Origin: Metabacillus halosaccharovorans
Lineage (GTDB): Bacteria; Bacillota; Bacilli; Bacillales; Bacillaceae
Direction of reading: 5' to 3'
DNA: 64,000 nt
NCBI RefSeq assembly: GCF_002019635.1
Contig: NZ_KV917371.1
Coordinates: 62,001 to 126,000, forward strand
Positions within the stretch are counted from its first letter, which is position 1. Each line of letters begins with the position of its first letter. The translations under genes were made by a program, and so were the position numbers. A model generated the notes under the pieces. That model was given only the letters and a program-made list of their open reading frames with translations, was not told the DNA's origin and searched no databases. Shown piece after piece: positions 18,667 through 30,006 of this stretch.

Positions 18667-19203
18667 TATTCTCCTCCTAGGTGTAATTCGTGTTAAAAAA
18701 CACAACATCCATTATTCTAAAGAGATATTCCTTTATTTGGAATAGTCATTTATTACCTATTATAAATACAAAATAGTGCAAAATACCTCCATTCTAAATA
18801 TTGGTAAATTAACTAAAGAACAGTGAACAAGCAATTGAAAAAACCACTTAATAACATCCGGAATCATAGAGTTTAAGATTCAATAACCACTAGCAGTATA
18901 TGCTATTTGACCTAGTAATTAATTCACCTAAAATACGACTTCCCTAATATTCTAATCAACCATTTTACCTATTTTTTCCTTTGTACACTGCAGGTAATTG
19001 TATATTTTTACCTATAAGCAAACAATCATTAATTTTTAGGGGTCAACAACCTTAGATAACTATTCTATATTATTTCTCGGAAAACCATCTCAATTTGATA
19101 TTTGTTTAATATCAAATTGAGATATATAATTAAATTAAGAAATCGGAAAAACGTTTACAACAAAAAAAATAAATTGCTTCTGATTTTTTAAGGAGGAGTA
19201 AAC
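18667..19203. other. Long intergenic region upstream of 48-aa gene copy 1
   Basis: No ORF is supportable in these 537 bases. The right-hand 120 bases hold the promoter, palindrome and cre-like site of the following small gene. The rest is AT-rich and featureless to my reading. Part of it (about 19015-19160) is recognisably similar to 28185-28320, upstream of the second copy. Confidence 0.5.
19087..19160 (+). promoter_or_regulatory. Promoter, palindrome and cre-like site of 48-aa gene copy 1
   Basis: TTGTTT (19102-19107), a 17-base spacer and TATAAT (19125-19130) form a SigA-type promoter. A perfect 16-bp inverted repeat with a five-base loop (19087-19123) overlaps the -35 box and spacer. GGAAAAACGTTTACAA (19145-19160) matches 12 of 14 positions of the CcpA cre consensus. 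All three boxes recur at 28257-28316. Confidence 0.6.
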
Positions 19204-19350
19204 ATGAGCCAATTAGCGAGAGAAATCAAAGTCAAGGCATTATTAGCTAAGCAAAAATTCAATGAAAAAGAGATCTCAGACATGTCAGATGCACAAATTG
19301 AATATTATCACTGGCTCTATTTCGAAGATTCTGTTTACGATTATATGTAA
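19204..19350 (+). CDS. 48-residue small protein, copy 1 of a duplicated pair
   Basis: AAGGAGGAGTAAAC precedes the ATG. The product starts MSQLAREIKVKALLAKQKFN and ends in SDAQIEYYHWLYFEDSVYDY plus a final Met. The N-terminal half is basic and helical; the C-terminal half is acidic and aromatic. The last 27 residues are nearly identical to the protein at 28371, and codon-level similarity is high. No known domain is recognised. It is monocistronic with a strong terminator and a possible CcpA-controlled promoter. Conservation in a paralogue indicates a real protein. Confidence 0.8.
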   Translation: MSQLAREIKVKALLAKQKFNEKEISDMSDAQIEYYHWLYFEDSVYDYM

Positions 19351-19374
19351 ATCTAAAAACCTTATATAAATAAA

Positions 19375-19408
19375 CTAAGCTTTTGTACCTGGTGCAAAAG
19401 CTTTTTTG
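19375..19408 (+). terminator. Terminator of 48-aa gene copy 1
   Basis: AAGCTTTTG and CAAAAGCTT arms around a nine-base loop, followed by TTTTT, 26 bases after the stop codon. Confidence 0.85.
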
Positions 19409-19495
19409 TTTGGAACAAAGGCATATTATTCATTGAATGACGATATTGTATTTGATACAATTTAATTGCACACAATATTCCAAGGAGGAAGATGT

Positions 19496-23518: not shown

Positions 23519-25354
23519 TTATGAAAACAGGTTCTTTAGGCGTGCCCAGAATCCTGTTTGTTCTTTTGTTGTTTTTTCTGGTTTTTCTTGTTCTTCTTTT
23601 TTGATGCTTTCTGTTTTTATGACAAATTGAACGGAATTTATTTGATGGTTTTTAGGTGATACGAAGGATACGGCTTCGAAGTCGGATTTGTCATAGTCTG
23701 CGATCATCTGATCCACTTCTTGTTTCATTTGTTCAGGTAAATCACTTGTCGATTCATAAAGTTCATCTGTTCCATCATGAAGCTTGCCTACACCGTTTTC
23801 CAATTCATCCGTTCCATGTGAAAGTTCATTAATACCAGTGTGCAACTTAGTATAGGAGTTAGATAATTGGTTTACTCCTCCTGAATACTCTACTAGACCT
23901 GAGTGGAATGCTCCATAATTGGAAGAAAGCTGATTAATTCCTTCTTGTAACTGTGCAAATGATTCTGCAACATCCATTTGTTCAAGTGAGGATGAAATTC
24001 CATTTGCAATCGTATCAAGATTGTCAGCCATTTCTGATAGAGCACTGTTAACTTGGCTTAATGTCACATCTACTGCGTCAAATGCTTCTTTTAGAGCCGA
24101 ATAGGTTCCCTTTGCCGTACGGGCGGCAGCATATGTTTCCAGTAATTGATTCAGTACTTGTTGATCTGCTCCGCTCTTGTATAACGCTTGTGTTTGTTCT
24201 TTTGTTATTTCGTATTCAGGAATAGCTTCCATTGCTTTATTTAACTCATTGTATGCTTTGGCAAAGTTTTCATTAAATGTCATTAAACCATCAGACGTTT
24301 CTCTTAGCCCGCCTGAAATTTGACTGAGCCCATCATCAAGCTTTTTAAAATCACCAAGACCCATTTCCTCTGAACCACTGCCGCTAAGAGATGTATTCAA
24401 TGTTTCGAGTGCCTGCTGAATGTTTTTAGAGGCATTGATCAGTTCAGTTGACGAACCATCTATTTTTGACATCCCTTCTTTAAATTGAGAAGAACCGTTG
24501 CCTAATTGATGTACGCCGTTATTGAGTTCCGATACTCCATCCTTTAAGTCACCAACACCATTGTTAATGTCCTTTATAGCATCTGTTAAAATTTCCATAT
24601 CGCCTGTCATGTCATCAATATTAGGTGCATCGATTGGCATGGAAGATGGAATAGCTGTGATATCGATGCCATCCAGTTCAAAATGAAGAGCATCTGCTTC
24701 AACTGTAAGTTTTTCCTCTTTTTCAGGCATGACGGTAAATGTTACTTGTTTGTTTTTTCCGGCATTCGCTAGCATCCCGTCAGGTGCCTTAATATTGCTA
24801 TATTTATCGGTATCAAGGGCAAGTGATATTTGTAATAAGTAGTTTTCAAAAAATATCGAATCCACTTGTTCGTTAGCTGATGTACGAATTTCTATTTGTA
24901 CATGTCCCTTTTTCCCAGCCAGTTCATCAGGGTTTATTTGCTTTCCATCTAGTATATAAGAAATGGAAACATCCCATGGCAAAGGCTCTTCCTTCATATT
25001 ACCTTGATAATAAAATTTCCCCTTCGAATCAGCTGTTACTCGAACAGTATTGTTTTTTTGCTCAAGCTCTGTTAGGTCTGTTAAGTTTTTTAAGCTTGTG
25101 TATGGCCCATAATCAACTATTTCACCAGGCTTTTCAATATCTAAGATATTAACCACATATGCCTCTTGTCTTTCTCCGGTCGCACTTAGCTTTGCATAGA
25201 CAACTTCATCTTTAGATGAAATTTCTCCAGTACCTTGAGAAGAATCACCATTTGATTTGCTGTCATCTGAAACAGCCGTAACATGTAATGAAGGAATCAC
25301 GAAAATAGTTGTTGTCAAGACAAGTAGAATTTTACTTATGCTTTTCTTCATCAT
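23519..25354 (-). CDS. Secreted YhgE-like protein with Leu-x-x-Gly heptad repeats
   Basis: A 611-residue exported protein. It has a signal peptide (MMKKSISKILLVLTTTIFVI, cleavage near SLHVTA), an N-terminal beta-rich domain to about residue 250, and a long helical region (255-560). That region has repeated LxxGxxxL units such as INNGVGDLKDGVSELNNGVHQLGNGSSQF and LSHGTDELENGVGKLHDGTDEL, the X-X-X-Leu-X-X-Gly repeat seen in YhgE/Pip-type proteins. Unlike YhgE it has no C-terminal membrane bundle. It overlaps the MMPL gene by four bases (ATGA), so the two are translationally coupled. It probably serves as extracellular partner of that exporter. Confidence 0.8.
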   Translation of the reverse strand: MMKKSISKILLVLTTTIFVIPSLHVTAVSDDSKSNGDSSQGTGEISSKDEVVYAKLSATGERQEAYVVNILDIEKPGEIVDYGPYTSLKNLTDLTELEQKNNTVRVTADSKGKFYYQGNMKEEPLPWDVSISYILDGKQINPDELAGKKGHVQIEIRTSANEQVDSIFFENYLLQISLALDTDKYSNIKAPDGMLANAGKNKQVTFTVMPEKEEKLTVEADALHFELDGIDITAIPSSMPIDAPNIDDMTGDMEILTDAIKDINNGVGDLKDGVSELNNGVHQLGNGSSQFKEGMSKIDGSSTELINASKNIQQALETLNTSLSGSGSEEMGLGDFKKLDDGLSQISGGLRETSDGLMTFNENFAKAYNELNKAMEAIPEYEITKEQTQALYKSGADQQVLNQLLETYAAARTAKGTYSALKEAFDAVDVTLSQVNSALSEMADNLDTIANGISSSLEQMDVAESFAQLQEGINQLSSNYGAFHSGLVEYSGGVNQLSNSYTKLHTGINELSHGTDELENGVGKLHDGTDELYESTSDLPEQMKQEVDQMIADYDKSDFEAVSFVSPKNHQINSVQFVIKTESIKKEEQEKPEKTTKEQTGFWARLKNLFS

Positions 25355-27405
25355 TTCTTCTCCTTATAAAAATGTGCTTTTAACGTTGTTTTTGCAATTA
25401 GCTTATCGAAGACAATGAACATAGCCGGCAGGAAGATCACAACCATAATAAAGGCAAGTAATGCCCCTCTTCCCAGCAATAACCCGATAGAAGATACAAT
25501 TGGGTTTGAGGATGTAATCCATAAAATAAACCCTACACTTGATAAAATGACACCTGAAATTCCAATCGAAAATATCTTCTCATCCAGTGTTTTTTTCATT
25601 GCTTCCAGTGCTGTCATTTCTTCACGATATTCTTTATAAGCATCTGTTAAAAGGATCGCATAATCAACTGTTGCCGCAAGTTGAATAATACTAATCAACA
25701 GGTAGCCGACATAAACTAATGCTGAATCTGTAAAATACGGAACCGAAAGATTAATCCAAACAGATGTCTGAATCGTCAAAAGTAGTACGATCGGAATCGA
25801 AATCGATTTAAACGTTACGATCAGGACAATCGCAATCGTAATGATGGTCAAAAGATTTACCAATGTATTGTCTTTTTGAACGGTATTTTTTATATCATAT
25901 AATGTTACGCTTTCCCCAACTGAATAGACTTCATCATAATATTGTTTTGCCTTACTGTTGACTTGTTCAATTAATTGGAATGCCTCTTCTCCCTCGTTTT
26001 TTGTTTCAGTTTGAAGAATCAATCGACTATAATTCTCTGAATAAAACTGTTCTGTTACAGAGGGATCCAAATACTCGGGAGGAATCGCCGAACTTACCGT
26101 ATTCACATAGGCAAGAACACTTGATACATGTTCAATGTTCTCTAGCTCTTGGACAAGCTCATCTTCTTTGGCAATATCTCCCCTTGGAACAAGCAGGACA
26201 AGCGGTGTACTTTCACCAAACTGTTCTTTTATTTTTACGATATCACTTCCTACTCTTGTATCTTCTGGCTGATCTCCGACACCGTAAATGAAATTTGTCT
26301 GACTTTGTGCTAAATATGCCGGTACGATTAGTAATAAAACAATAAGTAAGCTTGGAATTTTCATTTTCACCAAAGCATTGCCTTTATTTTTAATACTAGG
26401 CAGCAATGGTTTATGCTGTGTCTTGTCAATCCATTTATAAAACACAAGCGTTAATGCCGGTAAGAACACCATTACACTTATAAAACTTAGTAAAATTCCT
26501 TTTACCAGGTTGATCCCTAAATCGGAACCAATTTCAAAGTTCATAAATGATAGTGCGATAAACCCAAAGAAAGTTGTTGATGCACTTGCCGTTATCGCCG
26601 AAAAGGACTTTTTCATTGCAAGCTGCATGGCTTCCTGTGGATCTGCTGTTTTCTTGCGATAATCAGAAAAACTATGTAGCAGAAAAATCGCATAATCAAG
26701 TGAAACAGCAAGCTGTAAAATCGGGGCAACAGACTGGGTCACAAAGGATACTTCTCCAAGAAACATATTCGTACCCATATTAATTAAAATAGACACACCA
26801 ATTGCGGTTAAAAATAGTACAGGCTCTACCCAGGAATTTGTTGAAACAACTAAAATAATAATAATAATTGGAACTAATAAAGCTGCTGCATACATGGATT
26901 CTGTTCCGGCCATCTTTTGTTGTGTGGCCGTATTAAGAGATTCCCCTGCCATCGCATTATCTTCCCCAATAAGTTCATAGATTTCATCTGTAATAGCGAC
27001 TTCATCACCATCACGGATACTGAATGAAAATAATGCTTTTTCGTCCTTATAATACGTTTCTACAACCTCTTTATCCGCCATTTCGAGCGGCGCTTTTATG
27101 TCGATCGCATCATCCAACCAAGTCACATCTGACACACCATCAATGGCAGCTAATTCTTTTTTAAAAGCAAGAGCTTCCTGAATGGTCACATCATTGATCA
27201 TCACACGGTTAGACGGAACACTTCCCTCAAACTCCTGCTCCATTATGTTCATCGCTTTCGTTGACTGAGCATCTTCCGGCAGGTAATCTGTCATATCATA
27301 GTTTACCGATACAGTTAATGTTGCTAAGGAACAAATGATCGTCAGGACCATAAACGTGATCACAACTGCTTTTTTGTGTTTAATAATTCGTGCTGCAATA
27401 TTTAT
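25351..27405 (-). CDS. MMPL/RND family exporter
   Basis: A membrane exporter of the RND superfamily with two repeats, each a large extracytoplasmic loop followed by six helices. Landmarks are the first helix, DMTDYLPEDAQS, LDYAIFLLHSFSDYRKK (Asp of the proton relay) and the repeated VDYAILLTDAYKEYREE. It may export lipids or amphipathic compounds. The first in-frame GTG (27363) has no ribosome site and would remove half of the first helix. The frame stays open upstream through INIAARIIKHKKAV to ATA 27405 or ATT 27399, behind GAGGGTG. The coordinates use ATA. It is followed by the coupled secreted protein and faces a TetR gene. Confidence 0.8.
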   Translation of the reverse strand: MNIAARIIKHKKAVVITFMVLTIICSLATLTVSVNYDMTDYLPEDAQSTKAMNIMEQEFEGSVPSNRVMINDVTIQEALAFKKELAAIDGVSDVTWLDDAIDIKAPLEMADKEVVETYYKDEKALFSFSIRDGDEVAITDEIYELIGEDNAMAGESLNTATQQKMAGTESMYAAALLVPIIIIILVVSTNSWVEPVLFLTAIGVSILINMGTNMFLGEVSFVTQSVAPILQLAVSLDYAIFLLHSFSDYRKKTADPQEAMQLAMKKSFSAITASASTTFFGFIALSFMNFEIGSDLGINLVKGILLSFISVMVFLPALTLVFYKWIDKTQHKPLLPSIKNKGNALVKMKIPSLLIVLLLIVPAYLAQSQTNFIYGVGDQPEDTRVGSDIVKIKEQFGESTPLVLLVPRGDIAKEDELVQELENIEHVSSVLAYVNTVSSAIPPEYLDPSVTEQFYSENYSRLILQTETKNEGEEAFQLIEQVNSKAKQYYDEVYSVGESVTLYDIKNTVQKDNTLVNLLTIITIAIVLIVTFKSISIPIVLLLTIQTSVWINLSVPYFTDSALVYVGYLLISIIQLAATVDYAILLTDAYKEYREEMTALEAMKKTLDEKIFSIGISGVILSSVGFILWITSSNPIVSSIGLLLGRGALLAFIMVVIFLPAMFIVFDKLIAKTTLKAHFYKEKK

Positions 27406-27420
27406 AAGATTTCACCCTCT

Positions 27421-27548
27421 CTTGCCATTTTTTCTTGTACACCCTATCATTATATGGACACGGTGTTGGCTATTCAACAATCAGTTAGTTAACATCCGTT
27501 AGTTGAACAACACATATTCAAAATGTGTTGGATAATGTATAAGAAAAG
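27421..27548. promoter_or_regulatory. Divergent MMPL-TetR regulatory region with candidate operators
   Basis: AACACAT (27509-27515) and ATGTGTT (27523-27529) form a 21-bp palindrome near the TetR start. Beside it, GTTAGTT occurs twice, 16 bases apart (27484 and 27500). These are the expected positions for TetR binding that would repress both genes. Confidence 0.45.
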
Positions 27549-27557
27549 GTGATTTTC

Positions 27558-28124
27558 ATGGCTAGTTCTAAACTGGATCGACGGAAAAAATATACTCAGA
27601 TGGTCTTAAAGGATAGCTTAATGAGGCTTTTAAAAGAGAAACAAATTTCTTCCATAACAGTTAAGGAAATATGTGAGCATGCTGATATTAATCGTTCTAC
27701 ATTTTATTCCCATTACAGTGACCAATTTGATCTTCTTGATAAAATAGAAGATGAAATCATTGAGGATTTAACAGGATATTTAAATCAATGTCATTTTGAA
27801 AATGATGAAGATGATCTTCAGATGATCGAAAAGTTATTAGAATACTTCGCTTCAAAGCATGAAGTGTGCCAAACACTCCTTAACGAAAATAGTGATACGA
27901 CATTTCAAAAAAAAGTAATGGTTTTCGCTCAAGATTTCTTTATGAATCATTGGAAGGCTGAAAAACAACTCAGTGAAGAACTCTCAATGTATGTCAGTAC
28001 GTTTATTATAAGTGGAAGTATTTACGCAACGAAAACCTGGCTTAATAACGGAATGGACAAATCTCCAAAAGAAATGGCTGAACTCATTAATCATGTCATT
28101 AAATACGGCCTCTATGGAAAGTAG
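27558..28124 (+). CDS. TetR/AcrR family transcriptional regulator
   Basis: A 188-residue repressor. The N-terminal helix-turn-helix is ITVKEICEHADINRSTFYSHYSDQFDLLDKIEDE (about 33-66). The all-helical ligand-binding half resembles the TetR_C type found in YxbF/DhaS-like regulators, with LNNGMDKSPKEMAELINHVIKYGL at the end. ATG 27558 after AAGGTGA is chosen over the GTG at 27549. It is divergent from the MMPL exporter operon, which it probably represses until an exported substrate or drug binds. Confidence 0.88.
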   Translation: MASSKLDRRKKYTQMVLKDSLMRLLKEKQISSITVKEICEHADINRSTFYSHYSDQFDLLDKIEDEIIEDLTGYLNQCHFENDEDDLQMIEKLLEYFASKHEVCQTLLNENSDTTFQKKVMVFAQDFFMNHWKAEKQLSEELSMYVSTFIISGSIYATKTWLNNGMDKSPKEMAELINHVIKYGLYGK

Positions 28125-28249
28125 CATGTTTCACTGGGTTCGTATTTCCCCTTAACATTCCCAGAAATCTCTGGCCTATTTCTTATATAAAACAATCATT
28201 CTATGTATAAATAACATTTCTATATTAGTTTTCGCAAAATCATATCAAA

Positions 28250-28316
28250 TTGATATTTGTTTTATCTCTTTTTGAGATATATAATAAAGACAAGAAGTTA
28301 AGGAAAGCGATTACAA
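28250..28316 (+). promoter_or_regulatory. Promoter and cre-like site of 48-aa gene copy 2
   Basis: TTGTTT (28257-28262), a 17-base spacer and TATAAT (28280-28285) repeat the promoter of copy 1 exactly in hexamers and spacing. GGAAAGCGATTACAA (28302-28316) is a cre-like box in the corresponding place. The palindrome over the -35 region is degraded compared with copy 1. Confidence 0.6.
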
Positions 28317-28370
28317 TATAACAACAACAAAAGATTTATTCTTGGTTTATACATAAGGAGGATTTTAAAA

Positions 28371-28517
28371 ATGAGCAAAGTTGCCAGAGATTATAAAGTA
28401 AATAAATTATTAGACAAACAAAAATTTAGTGAAAATCAAATTTCCGAAATGTCAGATGCACAAATTGAATATTACCACTGGCTCTATTTTGAAGATTCTG
28501 TTTACGATTATATGTAA
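28371..28517 (+). CDS. 48-residue small protein, copy 2 of a duplicated pair
   Basis: AAGGAGG precedes the ATG by ten bases. The product starts MSKVARDYKVNKLLDKQKFS and ends SDAQIEYYHWLYFEDSVYDY plus Met. It is the same length as the protein at 19204, with the same helical basic start and aromatic acidic tail. Between copies the N-terminal half has drifted while the tail is unchanged, which points to selection on the tail. Transcribed alone between a TetR gene and a convergent methyltransferase gene. Function unknown. Confidence 0.8.
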   Translation: MSKVARDYKVNKLLDKQKFSENQISEMSDAQIEYYHWLYFEDSVYDYM

Positions 28518-28538
28518 TGTCTAGTTCAATAGATTAAT

Positions 28539-28570
28539 AAAAGCGAACATCAATTGATGTTCGCTTTTAC
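28539..28570 (+). terminator. Bidirectional terminator between 48-aa gene copy 2 and MetE-like gene
   Basis: AAAGCGAACATCAA and TTGATGTTCGCTTT form a 14-bp perfect stem with T-runs on both strands, five bases before the convergent stop codon. Confidence 0.88.
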
Positions 28571-28573
28571 ATG

Positions 28574-29677
28574 TTATCCCCAAATCTCTTTAGAAATGTC
28601 AACGATATATTTTAACTTCTCCCATTGTTCCTCTTCCGTTAGGATATTTCCATGATGTGTGGAAGCAAAGCCGCATTGTGGGCTGATACATATTTGCTCT
28701 AGTGGTACATATTTTGTTGCTTCTTCCACACGCGCTTTAATGTTTTCTTTATCCTCTAACTTGCCATGCTTTGATGTGAATACACCAAGCACAACTTGTG
28801 GTCCACCATTTGGTATGTGTTCTAATGGCGCAAAATCTCCAGAACGGTCATCATCATATTCCAAGAAAAACCCGTTTACTTTTTCTTTTGCAAATAATGT
28901 TGGCGCAATTTTAGCATAACTGCCTTCAAACGCCCAAGTTGAACGGTAATTTCCGCGGCAAAGATGTGTTGTGATAATAAGATCTTCCGGTTTATCTTCT
29001 AATACACCGTTTGCCACACGTAATGCTAAGTCAATTAATTGTTCACGGGAATAACCACTATCATTAAATGGAATTTCCGGTGCATTTAATCCGGCAATGT
29101 ATACATCGTCAAGTTGCAGATAGCGGCACCCGGCATCATAAAAAGCTTTAATAGCATCACGGTAAGTTTGAATCACATCATTTGTGTATTCTTCAATGTC
29201 AGGGTAAATATCCAGATTACGGATTCCTGCATTAAATAATTGGTTTGGACTAGGAATCGTTTGTTTTGCAACAGCACGGTCTCCAACGATTTCCTTAAAT
29301 TCAATGAACTCTTTTACATGTGGATGGTCCTGATTAAAGGAGATTTTCCCCGTTACTCTTACATCATATCTTTCGGTTTCTTCTCCATTGAATTTGAAGC
29401 CATGTCCCGGTACATACCCTTCAACACCATGTAAATGTTCTAAAAAGTCTGTATGCCAAAATCTGCGGCGGAATTCACCGTCTGTTACTGCCTGCAACCC
29501 TACTTCAATTTGCTTGTCCACAATTTTTTTAATTTCTTCTGTTTCAATTGTATGTAATTGTTGAGCAGTAATCGTTCCTTCTTGAAAATCCTTTCTTGCA
29601 TTATGAATTCTCTCAGGTCGCAACAAACTTCCTACATGGTCTGCTCTAAATGGCGCTTTTACTAGTGTTTTTGTCAT
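28574..29677 (-). CDS. MetE-like methionine synthase family protein (YxjG/YxjH type)
   Basis: A 367-residue protein equal to the C-terminal catalytic barrel of cobalamin-independent methionine synthase. Features are FRADHVGSLLRP near the start, DGEFRR, LQLDDVYIAGL, the zinc-ligand region TTHLCRGN (His-x-Cys), and a final SPQCGFAS containing the last zinc cysteine. It lacks the N-terminal folate-binding half, so it probably uses a methyl donor other than methyltetrahydropteroylglutamate. The SAM-I riboswitch upstream ties it to methionine metabolism, as for Bacillus yxjG/yxjH. ATG after AAAGGGAG. Confidence 0.9.
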   Translation of the reverse strand: MTKTLVKAPFRADHVGSLLRPERIHNARKDFQEGTITAQQLHTIETEEIKKIVDKQIEVGLQAVTDGEFRRRFWHTDFLEHLHGVEGYVPGHGFKFNGEETERYDVRVTGKISFNQDHPHVKEFIEFKEIVGDRAVAKQTIPSPNQLFNAGIRNLDIYPDIEEYTNDVIQTYRDAIKAFYDAGCRYLQLDDVYIAGLNAPEIPFNDSGYSREQLIDLALRVANGVLEDKPEDLIITTHLCRGNYRSTWAFEGSYAKIAPTLFAKEKVNGFFLEYDDDRSGDFAPLEHIPNGGPQVVLGVFTSKHGKLEDKENIKARVEEATKYVPLEQICISPQCGFASTHHGNILTEEEQWEKLKYIVDISKEIWG

Positions 29678-29724: not shown

Positions 29725-29888
29725 ATAAAAAACCCTCTTCCAAAAATAAGAAGAGGGGTCAGTTAGCATCATTATGCCTTGCTCCTCTTATCTCTATAGC
29801 GTCACACGCTACTGGAATTGGCACAGTACTTTTGAAAGTCCGCTGCCGAGGTTTCAAAGGGCCAGTCCCTCCACCTCTCTTGATAAGA
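29725..29888 (-). ncRNA. SAM-I (S-box) riboswitch with terminator
   Basis: On the reverse strand CTTATC opens P1, followed by AGAGGUGGAGGGACUGGCCC, the GAAACCUCGGCAGC core, UGUGCCAAUUCCAG, and the P1 partner GATAAG (aptamer 29786-29888). The S-box consensus is easily recognised. A terminator (29725-29759) with CCTCTTC/GAAGAGG and a T-run follows. The AAGAGG after P1 can pair with the terminator's left arm as antiterminator. It should shut off the MetE-like gene when SAM is high. Confidence 0.93.
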
Positions 29889-30006
29889 AAATATCAAAAT
29901 ATTAAATTAATATCATTACTATACAGTGAGTATTCATCCATTGTCAAACGTTTGAGTTGATTTCTTCCAAAAACCGACTTTTTTCTCCATATTATCCAAC
30001 ACTGTA

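Follow-up and report, generated by a model that had tools for sequence, protein, structure and literature searches.

The window, which is the whole stretch of 64,000 nucleotides of Metabacillus halosaccharovorans DNA analysed here, contains two genes for 48-residue proteins that, by their sequences, are paralogues within the BH0509 family, an already described family to which NCBIfam assigns no function. Each copy reads as an autonomous one-gene unit consisting of a promoter, a tandem operator, a cre-like box, the gene and a terminator. We give an even chance to the reading that these genes encode catabolite-repressed BH0509 paralogues which modulate a central-carbon enzyme or complex, the target, the regulator and the phenotype being putative.

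Two one-gene units in the window

The two copies lie 9 kb apart, both on the + strand, with the following features.

19053..19411 (right border approximate), + strand: whole conserved unit of copy 1, from upstream element to terminator (extent of blastn similarity to paralogous loci)
19054..19077, + strand: AT-rich conserved upstream element of copy 1, AGATAACTATTCTATATTATTTCT (alignment of 52 upstream regions, anchored consensus)
19087..19101, + strand: operator 1 of copy 1, ATCTCAATTTGATAT (upstream alignments and operator scans)
19102..19107, + strand: -35 of copy 1, TTGTTT (17 bp from the -10)
19109..19123, + strand: operator 2 of copy 1, ATATCAAATTGAGAT, within the promoter spacer (upstream alignments and operator scans)
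19125..19130, + strand: -10 of copy 1, TATAAT (TATAAT in 103 of 104 loci)
19145..19159, + strand: degenerate cre-like box of copy 1, GGAAAAACGTTTACA (sequence; aligned place of the conserved box)
19190..19196, + strand: Shine-Dalgarno sequence of copy 1, AAGGAGG (sequence, conserved)
19204..19350, + strand: gene of copy 1, 48-residue BH0509-family protein of the tail subfamily, P0001 (open reading frame, NF033562 match, homologue searches)
19377..19403, + strand: intrinsic terminator of copy 1 (terminator scan)
28206..28567, + strand: whole unit of copy 2 (start by blastn, end by terminator stem)
28242..28256, + strand: operator 1 of copy 2, ATATCAAATTGATAT (tandem-pattern scan of the genomes of the order)
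28257..28262, + strand: -35 of copy 2, TTGTTT (sequence)
28264..28278, + strand: operator 2 of copy 2, ATCTCTTTTTGAGAT (operator scans)
28280..28285, + strand: -10 of copy 2, TATAAT (sequence)
28301..28315, + strand: cre-like box of copy 2, AGGAAAGCGATTACA, 1 mismatch (cre scans)
28355..28361, + strand: Shine-Dalgarno sequence of copy 2, AAGGAGG (sequence)
28371..28517, + strand: gene of copy 2, 48-residue BH0509-family protein of the tail subfamily, P0002 (open reading frame, NF033562 match)
28540..28567, + strand: perfect terminator-like stem of copy 2, followed by a short T run only (sequence; not called by the scan)

Both genes were found where an earlier note on this DNA had placed them, and both translate to 48 residues. 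P0001 and P0002 are 77% identical (E 2.2e-20), and a search across the entire genome (5.4 Mb in 4 contigs) gave exactly these two window-type copies, the third match (E 0.6) being due to chance. The note had described a nearly identical tail behind a diverged head. This was borne out, since the last 22 codons of the two copies differ by two synonymous changes only, while about 13.5 nonsynonymous and 9.5 synonymous changes separate the heads. The promoter TTGTTT-17-TATAAT that it had reported is also present upstream of both genes, at 19102-19130 and 28257-28285; the scan missed both promoters because TTGTTT has only three of the six consensus bases. As for a terminator belonging to each gene, that of copy 1 was called by the terminator scan, but that of copy 2, a perfect stem at 28540-28567 with a short T run, was missed.

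The borders of the units were analyzed by blastn. Against non-orthologous loci, the match of copy 1 starts at about 19053 and ends between the stop codon and about 19419, and that of copy 2 extends mostly from about 28206 to the stop codon. At the orthologous loci of close relatives (L033, L034 and L037), the similarity extends further out, as expected. Since the similarity between non-orthologous loci ends near the edges of the unit, the two copies do not stem from a recent large duplication.

Beside copy 2, at 23519-28124, the window carries genes for a TetR-type regulator, an MMPL-type transporter and a YhgE-like protein (names assigned by eye). The TetR gene adjoins the copies in several Metabacillus genomes. 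A SAM riboswitch was detected on the - strand at 29785-29889, upstream of a MetE-like gene (by eye) of 367 residues at 28574-29677.

Membership of the BH0509 family and predicted fold

The earlier note had recognised no described family. This does not hold, as both proteins match the NCBIfam model of the BH0509 family, NF033562, above its cut-off. The cut-off of 30 was passed narrowly, with 32.1 bits for P0001 and 31.6 bits for P0002, and several Metabacillus paralogues fall below it (22.6-29.6 bits). Searches of Pfam, PHROGs and PDB sequences gave no match for the protein. The M. halosaccharovorans genome also contains a canonical BH0509 gene, a third family member (contig C1, at 2906775). 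Comparison of the subfamily profile with canonical BH0509 gave an hhalign probability of 91% (E 1.2e-6), and the window-type and canonical proteins, joined by intermediate sequences, align from end to end. Across 24 aligned members of the family, M1, R6, D29 and E33 are invariant. The two types share their length, the start MSxxxR, the core M27-[ST]-D29-x-x-[IV]-E33-[YH] and the three-helix fold. They differ in the tail, which is HWLYFEDSVYDYM in the window subfamily, whereas canonical BH0509 has a long third helix at this place. The window subfamily is moreover multicopy, is usually accompanied by a cre sequence and has an operator other than the aceBA-type promoter dyad of canonical genes. 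This dyad, which is a criterion of ours and does not belong to the NCBI definition of the family, is absent from the window copies; its two sites in the genome are at canonical BH0509 and at aceBA.

No function for BH0509 was found by a full-text search of the literature, which gave a gene list with a single mention of the name, placing a 53-residue BH0509-family gene on the epidermin plasmid of Staphylococcus epidermidis (PMC8765612), and an unrelated paper on bird phylogeny. Among the matches listed for small proteins and the glyoxylate shunt, nothing concerned the BH0509 family.

AlphaFold models were obtained for both types. The window type is predicted to form helices at residues 3-15, 21-25 and 29-38 (mean pLDDT 86.9, about 60 in the last block of residues), and canonical BH0509 at residues 3-17, 21-24 and 29-47 (mean pLDDT 92.8). 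According to these confident models both types are three-helix domains, the tail of the window type being less certain. Foldseek and VIA, run on the window type only, gave no convincing match to a solved structure, and such an absence is not evidence of a new fold. The head carries a charge of +2 and the tail of -5, for a calculated pI of 4.8. The acidic, aromatic character of the modelled third helix and tail favours a protein over DNA as the putative binding partner.

These properties also bear on the proposal that the product is an RNA chaperone similar to the Fur-regulated basic proteins, assisting a small RNA. The size is similar, and there is weak similarity over the segment up to the third helix. 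However, none of the 16 families listed at E<=10 for 73 members of the BH0509 family was PF13076 (FbpA), hhalign probabilities were 4.5% and 6.7% (10 of 19 loci entered the FbpA alignment, 7 of the 19 being left out as misread), and the product is acidic, not basic. We consider such a chaperone very unlikely, and a relationship with PF13076 was rejected on the family search and the hhalign values.

Distribution and selection

Window-type genes were found in 21 of the 60 genomes searched (E<1e-9), namely in M. halosaccharovorans itself, in 18 of its 20 congeners, in one other genus of the family and in one other family. These genomes hold one to four copies each, for a total of 52 genes. A scan of named genomes extended the distribution to at least 13 named genera among the matches listed; these include Neobacillus, Niallia, Peribacillus, Priestia, Robertmurraya, Mesobacillus and Domibacillus, and further Aquibacillus, Gracilibacillus, Sediminibacillus, Terrihalobacillus and Alkalihalobacillus.

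Pooled over the 48 distinct genes of the 52 in these nearest 21 genomes, the head had a dN/dS of 0.21 and the tail one of 0.095. In the 48 genes, residues M1, S2, R6, L13, K16, M27, I32, E33, Y34, H36, W37, L38, Y39, S43, D46 and M48 never change. These substitution patterns indicate that the protein is under purifying selection, strongest on the tail. The earlier note had proposed selection on the tail, which agrees with the lower ratio there, and had counted a lack of homologues outside the strain or a dN/dS near 1 against its reading; numerous genera have homologues, and in head and tail alike dN/dS lies well under 1.

Selection at the level of the protein is an argument against a different role for the locus, in which the transcript would be a dual-function regulatory RNA of the SR1 kind, acting mainly by base pairing and with the peptide as a secondary product. 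A short single transcript of about 270 nt (a predicted length) with its own terminator, and a conserved leader (AAGAA, and CTTCT before the Shine-Dalgarno sequence), would suit such an RNA. Leader and terminator sequences nevertheless vary between lineages, single-sequence folds of 18 of the 104 leaders showed no common structure by eye, and Rfam gave no match at the genes, only a SAM riboswitch further on. A main role as an RNA is thus quite improbable.

The units might also be mobile or selfish, spreading in several copies as part of a phage, a plasmid or a toxin-antitoxin module. The presence of as many as four copies in one genome, each in another location, the sharp borders of the unit and the BH0509-family gene listed on a Staphylococcus plasmid (PMC8765612) are in keeping with this, but phage records and viral contigs yielded no relative, 72,556 plasmid records yielded one, and PHROGs gave no match. 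In addition, positions and flanks are kept between related species, and no partner gene is linked to the copies throughout. We regard mobility as extremely improbable.

Several unusual arrangements were noticed among the relatives. Genome G087 (loci L200, L202 and L203) has eight NF033562 matches, and in the four tail-type copies inspected there the tandem operator is eroded and the cre-like box kept. At L138, L139, L146 and L125, in Aquibacillus and Niallia, second matches to the unit lie close to the gene and are perhaps tandem copies. The Niallia taxi plasmid NZ_CP102590.1 carries a copy of the gene at 411981-412124, a stretch under which no gene is listed.

A tandem operator around the promoter

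The upstream regions were aligned for 104 loci, which were picked by protein and not by promoter: 52 rows of relatives (window included) and 52 of named contigs. The latter are 52 of 78 loci, the other 26 repeating relatives already included. As L071 and L152 are the same contig, 103 of the 104 are distinct, and all counts of loci and genomes in this work are inflated by relatedness and are not independent.

The loci share a common architecture. A 15-bp palindrome, ATCTCANNNTGATAT (operator 1), abuts the -35; after 7 bp, a palindrome, ATCTCANNNTGAGAT (operator 2), fills the spacer and nearly abuts the -10. Downstream, TATAAT is followed by AAGAA, the cre-like box and the Shine-Dalgarno sequence. 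Operator 1 is matched at 10 or more of 12 fixed bases in 99 of the 104 loci and operator 2 in 101, and the distance between them is fixed at 22 bp. The -10 is TATAAT in 103 loci, and the -35 is TTGTTT in 58 and TGGTTT in 29. This conservation of the promoter signals supports the earlier suggestion of selection on expression. The shared palindrome of the earlier note was confirmed, but it is one half of a tandem operator, which overlaps the promoter (19087-19123 and 28242-28278) and was found only at this gene.

To what extent the operator pair is confined to this gene was assessed by pattern searches. In M. halosaccharovorans, the extended operator pattern with up to three mismatches has two matches, both at the copies. 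Over 25 genomes, this one included, operator 2 plus the -10 has 39 exact matches, all 39 at copies of the gene; with one mismatch there are 7 matches, 1 at a copy and 6 elsewhere, against 11 for the reversed control pattern. Of the 299 genomes of the order that were searched, 18 contain the tandem pattern ATCTCANNNTGATAT-N7-ATCTCANNNTGAGAT followed by the -10, at 19 sites (control, 0), and each of the 19 has, about 100 bp downstream, a gene that NF033562 had detected independently. Tail-type genes lacking an operator match include the G087 copies, whose operators are eroded, and that of G055, with more than the three mismatches allowed. Single-operator matches with at most one mismatch occur at 24 places in the M. 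halosaccharovorans genome, 3 of them at the gene; 12 of the 21 away from it were inspected, and none resembles this promoter. The tandem operator thus looks private to this gene in the genomes searched, and, as far as sequences tell, the protein and its tandem operator, set around a sigma-A-type promoter, have been passed on jointly across genera.

Variation within the operators is partly symmetric. At L094, L102, L107 and L127, both halves of operator 2 change from CTC to CTA at the same position, and the left half of operator 1 carries the same CTA change. The left half of operator 1 is also altered in many loci with an unaltered operator 2, and the right half rarely follows. Very similar proteins of Robertmurraya and Peribacillus are associated with operator 2 sequences that differ symmetrically (CTA against CTC half-sites). 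This pattern suggests a dedicated dimeric protein drifting with its sites. The symmetric change as proof of co-evolution was toned down, since both halves of operator 2 have changed in only 4 loci. Neighbour clustering and a crude motif scan revealed no transcription-factor gene that stays near the copies.

The half-sites resemble those of the MarR-type regulator MhqR, whose operator is described with ATCTC...GAGAT-like half-sites in a single even-centred repeat of 9-9 bp (PMC6798810). MhqR reads one such repeat, whereas the sites found here are two odd-centred repeats of 15 bp, 22 bp apart. Membership of an MhqR regulon was rejected on this spacing, operator 2 being a 15-bp odd-centred palindrome (at least 10 of its 12 fixed bases matched in 101 of 104 loci). 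As the operator pair was found only at this gene, a single DNA probe could serve to fish for the candidate regulator.

The cre-like box

The cre consensus is WTGNAANCGNWNNCW. The earlier note had described a box close to it at both genes, and this is correct for copy 2, whose box AGGAAAGCGATTACA has one mismatch and belongs to a feature shared across genera. The box of copy 1, GGAAAAACGTTTACA, is degenerate, with three mismatches to the consensus (counted by eye); the best cre place that the scan found in the copy 1 leader is elsewhere than 19145-19159 and has two mismatches.

A cre sequence with at most one mismatch is present in 66 of the 104 loci (67 under a second anchoring), against 0.7% of dinucleotide shuffles of the leaders. 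In 86 of the 104 leaders, the distance from the presumed start to the beginning of the best match is 6-12 bases, and in 67 of the 104 no more than 5% of the leader's own shuffles do as well. Of the 20 genus or strain groups tabulated, 18 include at least one locus with no more than one mismatch; in the Metabacillus set, only 25 of the 52 rows reach one mismatch. Some deeper relatives have a perfect consensus, for instance TTGAAAGCGATTACA in a G087 copy; in Sediminibacillus (2 loci) and Terrihalobacillus (1) no cre was found within 2 mismatches. Cre sites downstream of a promoter usually repress, and from the position of the box the gene is probably turned down by sugar.

Canonical BH0509 and the glyoxylate shunt

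Canonical BH0509 promoters contain a distinct conserved dyad around the -10, CTGTTATATAATA-N18-TGTATTATAACA, which was derived from 13 of 30 canonical loci, the other 17 being left out. A first search of 60 genomes with the exact pattern gave 15 sites (control, 0), 11 at BH0509 and 4 at aceA or aceB. When up to three mismatches were allowed, 73 sites appeared in 43 of the 60 genomes, again with 0 for the control; 32 are upstream of canonical BH0509, 37 at aceA or aceB and 4 at something else. Two of the 37 are weak, L324 with a malate synthase from 525 bp downstream and L326 with 25% identity. Of the 36 searched genomes with a canonical BH0509 gene, M. halosaccharovorans included, 32 have the dyad immediately ahead of it. 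In M. halosaccharovorans exactly two sites exist, at canonical BH0509 and at the malate synthase gene of the aceBA locus. Separate inspection of 20 aceBA loci, 14 from genomes with BH0509 and 6 from genomes lacking it, drawn from the 244 with a true isocitrate lyase, revealed the dyad in 19, with at least 22 of the 26 bases matched; at the remaining one, G080, 20 bases match, which is no better than a chance match found in another stretch.

The gene contents point in the same direction. Canonical BH0509 is present in 99 of the 244 genomes with a true isocitrate lyase and in 1 of the 55 without (Fisher's test, 7e-10, kinship ignored). The cut-offs (best E<1e-12 for canonical BH0509 and best E<1e-50 for the lyase) were set after the lists had been seen, and the genomes were counted by hand. 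The strict lyase cut-off was needed because PF00463 also matches in Bacillus subtilis, an organism described as devoid of the glyoxylate shunt (PMC3728045). No BH0509 match was found in 14 control genomes, B. subtilis among them. Canonical BH0509 very probably belongs to the glyoxylate-shunt regulon, and apparently this sister protein is induced along with the glyoxylate cycle. Given the probable sugar repression on one side and the apparent co-regulation of the sister with the glyoxylate cycle on the other, both proteins probably help adjust central carbon metabolism. A carbon-linked function of the small protein, as the earlier note had suggested, is thus favoured by the shared cre-like box and by the dyad common to the canonical member and the glyoxylate-shunt genes, its target being a conjecture. 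These results provide a first functional context for the BH0509 family, so that a small protein hitherto without a role can be tested as a component of the acetate and fatty-acid metabolism of bacilli.

For the window copies, the target cannot simply be the glyoxylate shunt, since genomes G127 and G299 have window-type genes without an isocitrate lyase and window-type genes do not share the aceBA dyad. A gene for fructose-1,6-bisphosphatase lies within 4.5 kb in 15 of the 104 loci. Of these, 13 are in the Metabacillus set, where shared descent accounts for them, and those outside are L123 and L140, so that this enzyme is a weak lead.

Other neighbours of the dyad were also recorded. At L278 (G036) and L329 (G042), in genomes without a BH0509 match, an aceBA-type dyad precedes the gene of a tiny protein with a CPxCxGxG zinc-finger motif, which, judged by its position, may be another small partner that takes this place in the regulon. 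At L323 (G052:C40:48134), the dyad is upstream of a small open reading frame that reads MTKTESIARRILGWKLNRWDRWF near its start. At L274, the aceBA locus of G080, a gene resembling an Lrp/AsnC-type regulator (by eye) stands beside aceB on the opposite strand; judged by its location, it could encode the reader of the aceBA-type dyad.

The two kinds of operator allow a further possibility to be weighed, namely that the 48-residue protein is a tiny autorepressor binding its private tandem operator. CopG-like repressors offer a comparison, as proteins acting on their own operator. An operator found only at this gene, the different dyad of the canonical subfamily and a compact helical domain with a basic head would all be expected of an autorepressor. 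Yet the protein has a calculated pI of 4.8, and DAQIEYYHWLY, the helix expected to contact DNA, has an acidic and aromatic character. The canonical dyad also occurs at aceBA, where 5 of the 6 inspected genomes lacking BH0509 retain at least 22 of its 26 bases (20 in G080); BH0509 is therefore not needed as the reader of the dyad. Finally, the Robertmurraya and Peribacillus proteins are very similar in spite of their CTA and CTC half-sites. Autorepression is accordingly unlikely.

Proposed mechanism and comparison with known systems

In the reading that we prefer, a catabolite-repressed modulator of central carbon metabolism, CcpA bound at cre, where the site is intact, would keep the gene low as long as a preferred sugar is present. 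A dimeric regulator dedicated to this promoter, bound at the two sites 22 bp apart, would add a second signal. The degenerate box of copy 1, the loci with no cre sequence or an eroded operator, and the neighbour searches that revealed no linked transcription-factor gene count against this reading. In the absence of sugar, a short mRNA of about 270 nt would be made once the private regulator leaves or remodels the tandem operator. Its 48-residue product would fold into a small three-helix domain (residues 3-38), from which the conserved C-terminal segment HWLYFEDSVYDYM would dock on a central-carbon enzyme or complex and modulate it. This may happen when the cell changes over to carbon sources of the gluconeogenic or acetate type. 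For the canonical paralogue, the isocitrate branch point would be the place of action, and the window copies may serve a related switch under a different signal.

A more specific version treats BH0509 proteins as switches of the isocitrate branch point. The canonical member would restrain or redirect an enzyme of the tricarboxylic acid cycle, sending carbon into the shunt, and the window copies, under their private regulator, would act at another node of gluconeogenesis. We hold this version to be possible, though on the doubtful side. If it were true, canonical BH0509 would play a part corresponding to that of AceK.

In its logic, the closest precedent for the window genes is SR1P of Bacillus subtilis, which likewise stems from a small single-gene transcript under CcpA and a second regulator. 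SR1P is described as a 39-residue protein encoded by a 205-nt RNA that is repressed by CcpN and CcpA; sr1 is made under gluconeogenic conditions, and SR1P binds and modulates GapA (PMC8152036). SR1P differs in its 39 residues and in coming from a dual-function RNA, and we liken it to the window genes by mode of action alone.

For canonical BH0509 only, the control of isocitrate dehydrogenase by AceK is a second parallel, as both are tied to the genes of the glyoxylate shunt. In Escherichia coli, AceK is co-expressed with these genes. An action of canonical BH0509 on isocitrate dehydrogenase is a conjecture from this analogy, AceK being a kinase/phosphatase (PMC6591243), whereas BH0509 is a helical protein of 48 residues.
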